From positions 1 through 45,013 of the forward strand of contig JACNKQ010000025.1 in the NCBI GenBank assembly GCA_014381945.1: a DNA stretch of 45,013 bases. Direction: 5' to 3'. The notes beneath the pieces were generated by a model that searched no databases, was not told the origin of the DNA, and saw nothing but the letters and a program-made list of their open reading frames with translations. Shown one piece after another: positions 29,459-34,717 of this stretch (position 1 is its first letter; each line of letters starts with the position of its first letter). The DNA is from Actinomycetota bacterium. Its GTDB lineage: Bacteria > Actinomycetota > Acidimicrobiia > Acidimicrobiales > MedAcidi-G1. The position numbers and the translations under genes were made by a program.

Positions 29459-32400
29459 TCAGGAGGCGACGAGCGCCACGACGTCCTCGGCGACACGGTC
29501 CACGGCGACCCGTTCGCTGACGACACGCGATGAACCACCCGGCGCCATTGTCACGCCGAACAGGCAGTCGGCAGCCTCCATCGTCCGCTTCTGGTGACTG
29601 ACGATCAGCAGCTGGGCATCGTTTCTGAACTGTCGGACGAGCCCCAGGAAGCGGTGCAGGTTGACGTCGTCCAGAGCGGCCTCGACCTCGTCCATGACGT
29701 AGAAGGGCGAGGGTCGGCTGCGGAAGACGGCGAACAGGAACGCAAGTGCGGTGAGCGAGCGCTCGCCACCGGACAGCAGCGAGAGCTTCCTGACGTTCTT
29801 GCCCGAGGGCTTCGCCTCGACCTCGATGCCGGTTTCGAGCAGGTTGTCCGGGTCGGTGAGGTGGAGTCGGCCGGTGCCCCCCGGGAACAGGGTGTCGAAC
29901 AGGTCGGTGAAATGGGCCGACACCTCGGCGAACGCCTCGGCGAACACCGAGGCGATCTCATCGTCGATCGATCGGATCACCTTGCGGAGGTCACGTCGGG
30001 TGTTGCGGATGTCCTCGAGTTGGCCGACCAGGAACTCGTGGCGCTCGCGCAGGGTGTCGTACTCCTCGAGTGCCAACGGGTTGACCGGCCCCATCAACTC
30101 GAGTTCCCGTTCCAGCTCGGTGATGCGGGCTGTCGCAGTGACGTCGTCGGGCAGGTCGGGAACGGGAGCGTCCAGGATGGCATCGGGCTCGCAACCGAAC
30201 TCGCTACGTATCGCCTCGGTCAGGTTCTCGAGTCGGAGCCTGGTCTCGGCCCGCTCGACCTCGAGCCGGGTCAGGCGCTCTCTCGCATCGGTGAGCGACT
30301 GCTCGGCGTCGGAGCGCTCGCGGCGGAGCCCGTCGAGCCTTGCGGCAACGGCCCGCACACGCTCGGACTGTCGACGGCGCTGCTCCCGCAGCTCGTCGAG
30401 TCGCCCATCCGCAACCGACATGCGAACGTCGAGCGCCTCTACGAGGTGGCGGGTGGCCGCCGCCTGAAGGTCGAGCTCGGCGCGTCGCTGGTCGGCCTGC
30501 TGGCGCTCGTCGTTGAGCTCGTCGAGGCGTGAGGAGTACTCGGTGACCCGTGTGAGTAGCAGGTTGCGTCGGGCCGCCAGGTCGGCCATCCGGACCTCGT
30601 GTGCGGTCCGGCGGCCGGCCAACTCGGCGGAGCGCTCCTCGAGGTCACGGCGCTGCTCGGCCATGCGTCGACCGGATTCCACGGCTTCGGATTCGGCGTC
30701 CTCGAGGTCGGGCAGCCTCGTCTCCAGATCGGCGACCCGGGACCGCTCATCCTTCAGCCGGGCCTCGATCACCCCGATGCGGGTCCGGAGGCCTTCGGCC
30801 TCGTTGAGGACGTCACGGCGTTCGGCCTGAAGACGCTGGAGTGCCTCGGCGGCCGCCGTGAACCGACCATCGTGGACATCGAGTTGCCGGGTGTGCCGGG
30901 CAACCTCGTCCTCGAGGTCGGAGGTCTGACGCTCGGCCTCGTCGAGTTGGCGGCGGGCGTCGATGCGCTCGTCCTCGGCAACTGTGAGGCTGGATTCGGC
31001 TTCGGCCAGGGCGGCACCCGTGGCACCCCCTCGGTCTCCGCCGATCCGCCAGCCGGACGGTCCGAACCGGTCCCCATCGAGGGTCACGAAGACGGCATCG
31101 GGGTACGCCATCGCCGCCTCGACAGCGGCATGGGCGTCGACGATGGCGGCCGGTGCGAGGAGGCGGTCGAGCAGGCGGTCGACCTCGGGCGTGCGGGCAC
31201 GTACGTGCCCACGTACCGATCGTCCGACCGGTGGCGCAGTCTTGTTTCCGGTGCCGGCGACCAGGGAGAGCACCGCTGCGTGGAGGTGGCCCTCGCGCAG
31301 GGCATCGAGAGCCTGCACCGCACGTTCGGCGTCCTCGACGACGACAGCGTCGAGCGCCTCGCCGGCTGCTGCGGCAAAGGCGGCCTCATAGCCCTCGTCG
31401 ACCTCGACCAGGTCGAGCAGTGTGCCCAGGACACCTTCGATGGCCGACAGGTGGGCCACGCCGGCACGCGAGCGGGCCTCGTCGAGTGCGAGGGCGAGGG
31501 CCTCCGCCCTCGCCCGGACGGTGCGGACATCGGCCTCCGCCGTGGCCAGCCGTTCCCAGGCGACGTTGCGCTGCATGGCAGCAGCGTGCAGGCGTTGCTC
31601 GATCTGGGTGAGCGCCTCGACCAACGGCTGTTCGGCTGTCTCGCCCTCGGAGAGTTGGTGGCGCAGGTCGATGGCCGCGGCGTCGAGGCGACCGGTCTCG
31701 GCCTCGAGCAGGGCCAGGCGGCCGGCCAGGCCGTCGCTTTCGGTCGAGGCCTGGGCGAGCGTGGCCCGCAGCACGCCCAACTCGCCGCGCGCCTCGGCTG
31801 CGTGGGTGCCGAGGGCCACGATCCCCTCGGCCCAGGTGACCTCGAAGGCGGTGCGGTCCGCCGCCAGCCCTGTCTCGGCCAGCGCCAGGCGCTCGGACTC
31901 GGGGGCCAGGGACTCGGATTCGGATTCGAGGCTCGCCAACTCGGACTCGGCACGGGTCTTGTCGACTTCGAGGCCGAGGACCATCTGCTGTGAGACGAAG
32001 GCCTCGCGGTCCCGCTCGATGCCCCGCAGCCGTTCGACCAGCACGCCGCGGATTCCACGGCCGCGTTCACGAAGGGACTCGAAGCGGAGCAGGCGGTCGC
32101 CGAGGTCGTCACCACCGGCGGCCAACTCGGACTCGGCCGACCTGATCTGGTCGGCGAAACCCTCGAGGGTGGCACGTGACCCGGATTCGATGCCGGCCAG
32201 GTCGGCCCGGCTCGTGGCCTCTCTGCGGGCCCGCTCCCGGAGCGTGGTGAGTTCGGTTGCGGTGCGGTGGCGGCGCAGGGCGCTCAGGTCGCCGACCAGG
32301 TCACCGTGTCGGCGGGCCGCCTCGGCCTGACGCTCGAGCGGTCGCAACTGTCGCCTCACCTCGCGTTGCAGGTCGCCCAGGCGGTCCAGGTCCACCTCGG

Positions 32401-32950
32401 TCGACCGCAGGCGTCGTTCGGCCTTCTCGCGGCGCTTGCGGTACTTCAGGATCCCAGCGGCGTCCTCGATGATCATGCGCCGCTCCTCGGCGTGCGCGTT
32501 CAGCACGGCGTCGATCTGGCCCTGGGAGATGATCACATGCTGTTGTCGCCCCACCGACGCATCCGAGAGCAGCTCCTGGATGTCGAGCAGCCGGCAGGCG
32601 GCGCCGTTGAGCGAGTACTCGCTCTCACCGGTCCGGAGCAACGTTCGGGTGATGGTGATCTCGGCGAGGTCGACAGGCAACAGGCGGGCTTCGTTGTCGA
32701 TCGTGAGCGAGACCTCGGCCCGGTCGAGGGCGGGACGCTCGGCGGTGCCTGCGAAGATGACATCGTCCATCTTCTGAGAACGGACGGCGCTGGGGGCCTG
32801 GGCGCCGAGCACCCAGGTGATGGCATCCACCACGTTGGACTTGCCGCTGCCGTTGGGGCCGACGACGACGGTTACACCCGGCTCGACATCGAGCACGGCC
32901 CGGTCGGCGAAGGACTTGAAGCCCTTGATGGTGAGCCGCTTGAGGAACAC
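29459..32950 (-). CDS. smc: Chromosome segregation ATPase SMC
   Basis: SMC dimers with ScpA and ScpB load near origins and fold the chromosome. The 1163-residue protein has Walker A GPNGSGKSN at 31-39, long coiled coils (about 165-500 and 660-980), a hinge with the Gly-rich WRIGGDRGGATGAAL segment (about 500-650), the signature LSGGERSLTALAFLFAVF, and Walker B FYVMDEVEAALDDVN. Start GTG at 32950 matches the family start (FLKRLTIKGFKSFAD) and has GGAGGGG upstream. The adjacent Fpg-like gene and rnc keep the actinobacterial order. Confidence 0.97.
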   Translation of the reverse strand: MFLKRLTIKGFKSFADRAVLDVEPGVTVVVGPNGSGKSNVVDAITWVLGAQAPSAVRSQKMDDVIFAGTAERPALDRAEVSLTIDNEARLLPVDLAEITITRTLLRTGESEYSLNGAACRLLDIQELLSDASVGRQQHVIISQGQIDAVLNAHAEERRMIIEDAAGILKYRKRREKAERRLRSTEVDLDRLGDLQREVRRQLRPLERQAEAARRHGDLVGDLSALRRHRTATELTTLRERARREATSRADLAGIESGSRATLEGFADQIRSAESELAAGGDDLGDRLLRFESLRERGRGIRGVLVERLRGIERDREAFVSQQMVLGLEVDKTRAESELASLESESESLAPESERLALAETGLAADRTAFEVTWAEGIVALGTHAAEARGELGVLRATLAQASTESDGLAGRLALLEAETGRLDAAAIDLRHQLSEGETAEQPLVEALTQIEQRLHAAAMQRNVAWERLATAEADVRTVRARAEALALALDEARSRAGVAHLSAIEGVLGTLLDLVEVDEGYEAAFAAAAGEALDAVVVEDAERAVQALDALREGHLHAAVLSLVAGTGNKTAPPVGRSVRGHVRARTPEVDRLLDRLLAPAAIVDAHAAVEAAMAYPDAVFVTLDGDRFGPSGWRIGGDRGGATGAALAEAESSLTVAEDERIDARRQLDEAERQTSDLEDEVARHTRQLDVHDGRFTAAAEALQRLQAERRDVLNEAEGLRTRIGVIEARLKDERSRVADLETRLPDLEDAESEAVESGRRMAEQRRDLEERSAELAGRRTAHEVRMADLAARRNLLLTRVTEYSSRLDELNDERQQADQRRAELDLQAAATRHLVEALDVRMSVADGRLDELREQRRRQSERVRAVAARLDGLRRERSDAEQSLTDARERLTRLEVERAETRLRLENLTEAIRSEFGCEPDAILDAPVPDLPDDVTATARITELERELELMGPVNPLALEEYDTLRERHEFLVGQLEDIRNTRRDLRKVIRSIDDEIASVFAEAFAEVSAHFTDLFDTLFPGGTGRLHLTDPDNLLETGIEVEAKPSGKNVRKLSLLSGGERSLTALAFLFAVFRSRPSPFYVMDEVEAALDDVNLHRFLGLVRQFRNDAQLLIVSHQKRTMEAADCLFGVTMAPGGSSRVVSERVAVDRVAEDVVALVAS

Positions 32951-33095: not shown

Positions 33096-33941
33096 TCAGA
33101 CCTGTGTGTCGCAGTAGTAGGTCCAGCGGTTCTTGTACTTCGTGCGCAGGATCGGCGCCCGACTGCGAGGGCTGAGATCGCCGGCCCGCCCGTAGACGGC
33201 CAGATGGTCCTGGTAGATGCCCGCAACGCCGAAGATGTCGAGGAAGGGCCGATCCTCGAGGCTTGTGCCCCGGTACTTGACGGCATTGTGGACGATCTCG
33301 ACAACCGCCCGGTAGAGGCGCCGGACCTCCTGGCTCGAGAGCGAGCCGGTCCGCCGGTCGTGCCGCAGCCCGGCGGCGAAGAGGATCTCGTCGCTGTAGA
33401 CGTCGCCGATGCCGACAAGGAAGGAGTCGTCGCACAGGAGGTCCTTGAGCAGCGCATCGCGGCTGAACACCCGTCCGGCGAAGTCCGTCCAGGAGATCGG
33501 TTCACCAATCGGGTCGAGGCCCAACCTGTCGAGTTCAGGAAGGTCCTGGAAGATCGTCTCGGCCGGCACGACGCGAACCTGTGAGGCCCCGGCCGGGTCG
33601 ACCAGGCGCAGCTGTCCTCCCTGGGTGAACGTGATCGTCAACTCGGTGCCCGGCTGCCTGGCTTCCTTCGTGCGCTGTCGACGCAGCAGGGCACCGGGGC
33701 CGAGGCGAATCACGAGGTAGTGGTCGTCCATCTCGATGCAGATGTGGAGTCCGGCCCGACGAACCGAAACCACCTTGCGACCCTCGAGCTGGCTGGTGAA
33801 CTGCTTGCGGTTGTGGTAGCCCTCCAGCACCGCCATCGACGCCGCCTCGGCAGACTTGATCTTTCGGCTCGGGTTGCAGAGGTCCCGGTCGAGGTCGCGT
33901 CTAAGGGTTTCGATCTCGGGCAGTTCCAACGCAATGGTCAT
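33096..33941 (-). CDS. Fpg/Nei-family protein lacking catalytic residues and zinc finger cysteines
   Basis: The 281-residue product aligns over the full length with formamidopyrimidine-DNA glycosylase: ELPEIETLRRDL near the start, LEGRKVVSVRR, the helix-two-turn-helix FLVGIGDVYSDEILFAAGL, and LAVYGRAGDL. But the N-terminal nucleophile proline is absent: the protein begins MTIALELPE instead of MPELPE. The GKYL lysine region reads AGLHI, the catalytic-site Asn is Asp (GIGDVY), and only one (YYC) of the four zinc-finger cysteines remains. It sits exactly at the actinobacterial fpg locus between smc and rnc. A DNA-binding or altered glycosylase role is possible. ATG overlaps the rnc stop; a TTG at 33944 is also possible. 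Confidence 0.88.
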   Translation of the reverse strand: MTIALELPEIETLRRDLDRDLCNPSRKIKSAEAASMAVLEGYHNRKQFTSQLEGRKVVSVRRAGLHICIEMDDHYLVIRLGPGALLRRQRTKEARQPGTELTITFTQGGQLRLVDPAGASQVRVVPAETIFQDLPELDRLGLDPIGEPISWTDFAGRVFSRDALLKDLLCDDSFLVGIGDVYSDEILFAAGLRHDRRTGSLSSQEVRRLYRAVVEIVHNAVKYRGTSLEDRPFLDIFGVAGIYQDHLAVYGRAGDLSPRSRAPILRTKYKNRWTYYCDTQV

Positions 33942-34717
33942 CAATCTCTCCCTGCTTCGGCCAGGACGGCCGCTTCCTGACGATTCGGTTCGGGGGCGGC
34001 GGACCGGTCGAGCCCCTCGAGCTCGGTCCAGGCGAGGTGGGCAGCCGCCTGTTCGGCCCGCTTCTTGGAGGTGCCGGAGGCGGGCCCGTATGAGGTCCCG
34101 TCGACCTCGACCTCGGCGTGGAACCGTGGATCGTGGTCGGGGCCCTCGGAGGTCAACAGGTACCTCGGCGGGGCATCGAAGTGGCGCGCCACGAGTTCCT
34201 GGAGCCGGGTCTTGTGATCGTGGACCCCCGGATCCTCGGCGGCCCGGTCGATGGCGCTGTCGAGGAGCCCATCGACGACCGCGAAAGCCGGTCGCTGGCC
34301 GCCATCGAGGAAGACGGCGCCGATGACCGCCTCCATGGCATCGGACAGGATGGACTCCTTGCAGTCCCCACCCGACGCTGCCTCACCCCGACCCAGCCGC
34401 AGCGCTCGGCCGAGGTCGATGCAACGGGCGGCCTCGGCCAGGGCGTCGGCGCTGACGACACCCGCACGGATCTTGGCCAACTCGCCTTCGGTGAGTTCGG
34501 GGTGCACGCGGTAGAGGCGGGCGGCGACGGCGAGCCCCAGCACGGCGTCACCCAGGAACTCGAGGCGCTCGTTGGATTCGCCACCGTGCTCGGCACACCA
34601 GGAGCGGTGCGTCAGGGCCTCGATCAGCAGGTCCGGGTCTGCGAACCGGTGCCCGAGCCGATCTGCGACGGCCTGCGCTTCGGTGGTTGCGGGATCAGCC
34701 GAGGAGGGAGGAGACAT
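33941..34717 (-). CDS. rnc: Ribonuclease III
   Basis: RNase III cuts double-stranded RNA in rRNA processing and regulation. The 258-residue product has the signature NERLEFLGDAVLG (49-61), the second acidic motif (SDAMEAVIGAVFLDGG) and a C-terminal dsRNA-binding domain (KTRLQELVARHF, GTSKKRAEQAAAHLAW). The ATG at 34717 overlaps the acpP end by 23 bases and is the last normal start before the conserved region; no strong ribosome binding site is seen, so coupling to acpP is likely. Confidence 0.94.
   Translation of the reverse strand: MSPPSSADPATTEAQAVADRLGHRFADPDLLIEALTHRSWCAEHGGESNERLEFLGDAVLGLAVAARLYRVHPELTEGELAKIRAGVVSADALAEAARCIDLGRALRLGRGEAASGGDCKESILSDAMEAVIGAVFLDGGQRPAFAVVDGLLDSAIDRAAEDPGVHDHKTRLQELVARHFDAPPRYLLTSEGPDHDPRFHAEVEVDGTSYGPASGTSKKRAEQAAAHLAWTELEGLDRSAAPEPNRQEAAVLAEAGRD

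Follow-up and report, generated by a model that had tools for sequence, protein, structure and literature searches.

Gene locus and loss of the catalytic residues

The DNA window analysed here is the whole stretch of 45,013 nucleotides (contig JACNKQ010000025.1 of assembly GCA_014381945.1, positions 1 to 45,013) from a bacterium of the order Acidimicrobiales. The gene under study (33096..33941, minus strand, as for all features given below; 281 amino acids plus stop) encodes a homologue of Fpg/MutM that appears to have lost its catalytic function. The assignment is based on the open reading frame, on the Pfam domains H2TH (helix-two-turn-helix) and Fapy_DNA_glyco, on an AlphaFold2 (AF2) model and on the match to the MutM fold. 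The gene is preceded by rnc, encoding RNase III (33941..34700, far end approximate), and followed by smc (29459..32950), the downstream neighbour that marks the locus, so that the order corresponds to the conserved rnc-mutM-smc arrangement. The rnc gene ends at 33941, and its stop codon shares a single base with the start of the Fpg-like gene (TGATG).

The N-terminus of the window protein, MTIALELPEIETLRR, is three residues longer (MTIA-) than that of canonical Fpg; Leu5 occupies the column of the nucleophilic Pro2, and Glu6 corresponds to the retained Glu3 (33924..33929). An upstream start that would provide an MPE N-terminus, a possibility raised in an initial annotation of this DNA, is excluded because the codon ahead of Glu6 encodes Leu. 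The RRRGKY motif reads RRAGLH, Leu65 (33747..33749) replacing the catalytic Lys (Lys57 in E. coli, Lys60 in MutM), and GIGN reads GIGD, Asp180 (33402..33404) replacing the H2TH Asn (Asn168 in E. coli). The C-terminal hairpin (residues 257-281, 33099..33173) is of a zincless type with S257, S260 and no fourth cysteine, leaving C277 as the only one of four zinc cysteines; this third zinc Cys and the terminal QV (33099-33116) are kept in nearly all zincless members of the group. The alignment thus bears out the earlier claim that the N-terminal Pro, the Lys, the Asn and three of four zinc cysteines are gone, and it shows that the Met of LGM(S/T)G, the His of HLGM and the R-T-F intercalation loop are lost as well, the Met/Arg/Phe triad being replaced by Pro82 and a G-A-S loop. 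The zinc-finger Arg (Arg258 in E. coli) is present as Arg272, as it is in only about one third of the clade. The identical set of residues is lost throughout the 74 sequences of this clade, a pattern that is far from chance.

Excision by Fpg requires Pro1 and Glu2 in the numbering of the mature protein (PMC5422863), and base eversion by the E. coli enzyme requires Arg108, Asn168 and Arg258, with N168D, the change that is found in the window protein as Asp180, being the most detrimental mutant tested (PMC4737139). Because residues of both sets are lost, Fpg chemistry is not plausible for the window protein.

Fold and selection

The helix-two-turn-helix is kept, as the initial annotation had stated, both in the Pfam H2TH match (6.6e-15) and in the AF2 model. 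Its view that the protein descends from a repair enzyme likewise agrees with the two Fpg Pfam domains, with the MutM proteins that are the closest relatives in the PDB, and with the position in the tree among intact syntenic Fpgs. The AF2 model is compact and of high confidence (pLDDT 95.4, pTM 0.91) and retains the C-terminal hairpin; the input alignment contained intact homologues, so the model shows that the sequence fits the fold and does not prove the fold independently. MutM is ranked first by both Foldseek and VIA-align (2f5q, 1r2y; for 1r2y Z 33.7, with a root mean square deviation of 2.1 A over 272 residues). The TIGR00577 (Fpg/MutM) score is 153.7 bits, below the cut-off of 203.3. 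Membership in other families is not indicated: the Nei (endonuclease VIII) profile gives 49.9 bits against a cut-off of 252, and Pro2 is absent; NFACT_N gives 12.9 bits against a gathering threshold of 31 (0.047); and the weak match to ribosomal protein S13 (0.014) runs via the H2TH region only and lies far under the cut-off. By descent and by fold, that is, an N-terminal beta domain plus H2TH, the window protein is an Fpg, but it fails when checked for the features that define Fpg chemistry.

The Fpg-like gene is under purifying selection. Its dN/dS (NG86, relatives within the genus) is 0.10-0.14, compared with 0.13-0.25 for rnc and 0.11-0.17 for smc, and the frames of the relatives are open and contain no internal stops. 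The conclusion of the initial annotation that this is an intact gene overlapping rnc, and no pseudogene, is therefore upheld by the shared base, the dN/dS values and the modelled fold. An assembly error was rejected on the evidence of the relatives' sequences, of dN/dS and of the model, and a loss confined to this one metagenome-assembled genome was rejected since all near relatives are alike.

Mean net charge has shifted from +6.7 in intact to -1.1 in degenerate proteins; the window protein, at +2, lies on the upper side of its clade.

A second, canonical Fpg

The genome that contains the window (G000; 2.49 Mb, 97.5% complete) encodes exactly two Fpg members by Pfam, the window gene and one canonical copy, so that the search for a second fpg that had been proposed earlier was positive. 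The latter, named CAN here as the type of the second Fpg, lies on another contig (C55:67954-68764) and has Pro2, Glu3, Lys53, Met75, RRFG, Asn171 and both CxxC motifs. A CAN profile run against 128 genomes of the order separates the matches into two classes, at least 356 bits and at most 214 bits, with none between. One CAN match (L253, G197:C22:36162-36968) carries one in-frame TAG stop.

The gene between rnc and smc could be read in 119 genomes of the order, and was counted as lost when at least two of Pro2, Glu3, Lys and Asn were gone. An intact locus gene without CAN was found in 55 genomes and a lost gene together with CAN in another 55; seven genomes have a lost gene and two a gene with one residue missing, in both cases without CAN. 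The combination of an intact locus gene and CAN occurs in none of the 119. CAN, which is of a different lineage, is present in nearly all genomes with a degenerate copy. In the order set, each of the 49 genomes that carry CAN also has the locus gene. A sample of 149 genomes of the phylum gave the same picture, a homologue of the rnc-locus type being present in all 21 CAN genomes besides that of the window; the TIGR00577 scores listed for this homologue do not exceed 203.4 bits, against about 240-300 for intact proteins.

Among the 55 genomes with a lost gene and CAN, the Met is lost in 55, the Asn in 53 and the Lys in 52. All four zinc cysteines persist in 16, and only one in 37. A zinc finger is thus still present in some of the chemistry-deficient forms and missing from others, and the window protein is of the zincless type.

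Phylogeny and residues kept after the loss

In a tree from which the columns of the lost residues had been taken out, the degenerate sequences group together as a single clade (bootstrap 99 / SH-aLRT 99), which lies within the intact syntenic Fpgs; the CAN sequences have a clade of their own (100/99). A grouping caused by the lost residues themselves is thereby rejected. Elsewhere in the phylum, the families f29, f37 and f41 also have a degenerate rnc-locus gene; these genes make up a second clade beside the intact families f35 and f38, and the genomes checked carry CAN with the exception of G239 and G269. The trees indicate that the chemistry has been lost at least twice, and these two origins are well supported.

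Some additional sequences are of note. The rnc-locus gene L277 of genome G098 (family f52) is a highly divergent, zincless, degenerate Fpg (TQLPEAELIF, GIGE), its genome of 2.1 Mb contains no further Fpg match, and it possibly represents a further independent loss. The same may be true of L240 (G161), a long-branched, separate degenerate copy (MMELAEVEVIR, GLGP) beside the intact G194, in a genome without CAN. A different condition is seen in nine rnc-locus Fpgs of family f35 (L131, L132, L135, L136, L317, L318, L321, L325 and L326), which are missing Pro2 and have the Lys, Met, Phe, Asn and all zinc cysteines intact, with an ATG or GTG codon immediately ahead of the Glu, so that the mature protein would start Met-Glu. 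The f35 genomes checked have no CAN, and the Met amine possibly serves as the nucleophile in these proteins.

Conservation across the intact proteins and both degenerate clades, but not in CAN or other Fpgs, is seen at fifteen positions: K29, F105, G109, R112, D143, W151, I186, L192, R193, D195, Q204, R207, R211, E215 and R261. Some of them may be structural. Four of these lineage-specific residues, Q204, R207, R211 and E215, lie on the helix 203-222 (33276..33335) of the AF2 model, where their spacing (i, i+3, i+7, i+11) places them on one face, and they are kept after catalysis is lost.

Discussion

The explanation that we consider probable is that the window gene represents the MutM resident at the rnc-mutM-smc locus and that this MutM has become a pseudoenzyme, with repair being covered by a second Fpg and the resident copy being kept for a binding role. 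A pseudoenzyme is indicated by homology and synteny with intact MutM, by the loss of the catalytic and lesion-recognition set, by the retention of the whole fold in the model, and by purifying selection on the gene. In this scheme CAN would have taken over the repair of 8-oxoguanine (8-oxoG) and FapyG, which would have freed the resident MutM from its chemistry and allowed the catalytic residues to be lost. The resident copy would then have been retained for a binding role that it already had or acquired, most likely exerted via the lineage-specific region 186-222, which might contact a protein partner or bind nucleic acid in a manner other than that of Fpg. Because the conserved residues are shared with intact resident MutMs, we lean towards an old rather than a new role. 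The retention of the dead copy in dozens of bacterial families and the at least two losses imply that it probably performs some other, non-repair job. Considerably more tentative is the wider proposal that the resident MutMs of this actinobacterial lineage have a second, non-repair function, reflected in conserved residues of the 186-222 region, which keeps the gene once its chemistry is redundant and which has been laid bare twice independently where CAN is present.

Several observations weigh against the pseudoenzyme explanation. The pattern comprises about two independent events, and with two pairs a sign test on the tree falls short of significance; the link between loss and CAN is therefore a strong pattern and not a proven cause. 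The wider tree supports the first degenerate clade at 43/79 only, with the long-branched L277 placed near. Among the 55 genomes with a lost gene and CAN, the Lys is kept in three and Pro2 in ten, and Glu3 persists in 45, possibly a sign of some remaining chemistry. However, a structural role is sufficient to explain the retention of Glu3, because in Fpg structures this Glu is a hydrogen-bond acceptor for main-chain amides in the H2TH turn (PMC5422863). Degenerate copies without CAN occur in genus g2 of the window's family and in G053, G149/G185, G161, G098, G239 and G269, which leaves the order of events unproven. Lastly, no clade-specific shift that matches the Fpg-like gene was found in rnc or smc, both of which were rejected as co-evolving partners for that reason.

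The initial annotation had suggested a DNA- or RNA-binding protein. The charge reversal and the lost Lys, His, Met/Arg/Phe and Asn speak against Fpg-style DNA binding, and a protein-binding role is at least as likely. The same evidence bears on an alternative that we regard as unlikely, namely that the protein is a non-catalytic binder of DNA damage, acting as a lesion sensor or as an accessory that passes lesions to the second Fpg. The kept fold, H2TH and C-terminal hairpin in the model and the structure alignment, the co-occurrence with a second Fpg, and the four zinc cysteines in 16 of 55 genomes would fit such a role; but the Met, Arg/Phe, Asn and Lys that read and hold the lesion are lost in both clades, the mean net charge is negative, and in genus g2 the degenerate gene is kept without CAN and is thus independent of it. 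Three genomes of that genus (G006, G011 and G023) and G053 encode Nei-like proteins besides the dead Fpg; as no canonical copy was found in them, they may be devoid of any Fpg activity.

It is very improbable that the protein acts as a glycosylase/lyase by another chemistry, with a different amine or the kept Glu. NEIL3 works without Pro2, and Glu3 is present in most degenerate copies. Nevertheless, the N-terminus is either several residues longer or begins with Met-Leu, Met-Phe or Met-Ile, from which the Met would not be removed, so that no conserved amine is at the site; moreover, no conserved Lys substitutes for the one that has disappeared, and the residues that read the lesion are missing. 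A gene in decay that persists only through co-transcription or co-translation with rnc and smc, as the one-base overlap with rnc might suggest, is hardly credible in view of a dN/dS of about 0.1, the open frames of the relatives, the compact and confident AF2 fold and the positions conserved over many families. The sequences argue for a pseudoenzyme with the Fpg fold that is shared family-wide, the resident MutM having lost its catalytic set and kept its fold.

Fold and position would label such a gene fpg/mutM, and repair capacity would thereby be misassigned over a large actinobacterial group. The repeated association of a dead resident with a working-type second copy represents a natural experiment that parts catalytic from non-catalytic constraints on MutM, and the pattern points to residues worth testing for the latter. 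Searches of open-access literature yielded no relevant description of an Fpg clade without catalysis or of a MutM variant from acidimicrobial bacteria, which does not prove that such a report is absent.

Comparison with known systems

The nearest system is the intact Fpg/MutM of the rnc-mutM-smc locus, which shares locus, fold and descent with the window protein; Mtb-Fpg1, for example, adjoins rnc (PMC2734929). In contrast to these intact homologues, the clade of the window protein has lost the catalytic, intercalation and zinc residues, and its charge is reversed on average. Mtu-Fpg2 (Rv0944) of M. tuberculosis is an Fpg paralogue that is also devoid of the N-terminal catalytic residues, but the window protein differs from it in that it is of full length and its conservation extends over many families. 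The zincless-finger PFNei clade and NEIL1 are active glycosylases, unlike the predicted state of the window protein, and judging from profile scores and PDB relatives they are not its closest relatives. What they have in common with the window protein model is a C-terminal hairpin without zinc cysteines (PMC3188539). NFACT-N (RqcH/NEMF) and ribosomal protein S13 share with it, by weak Pfam matches only, the H2TH region, a module whose occurrence in these two proteins is a reminder of its use outside repair.
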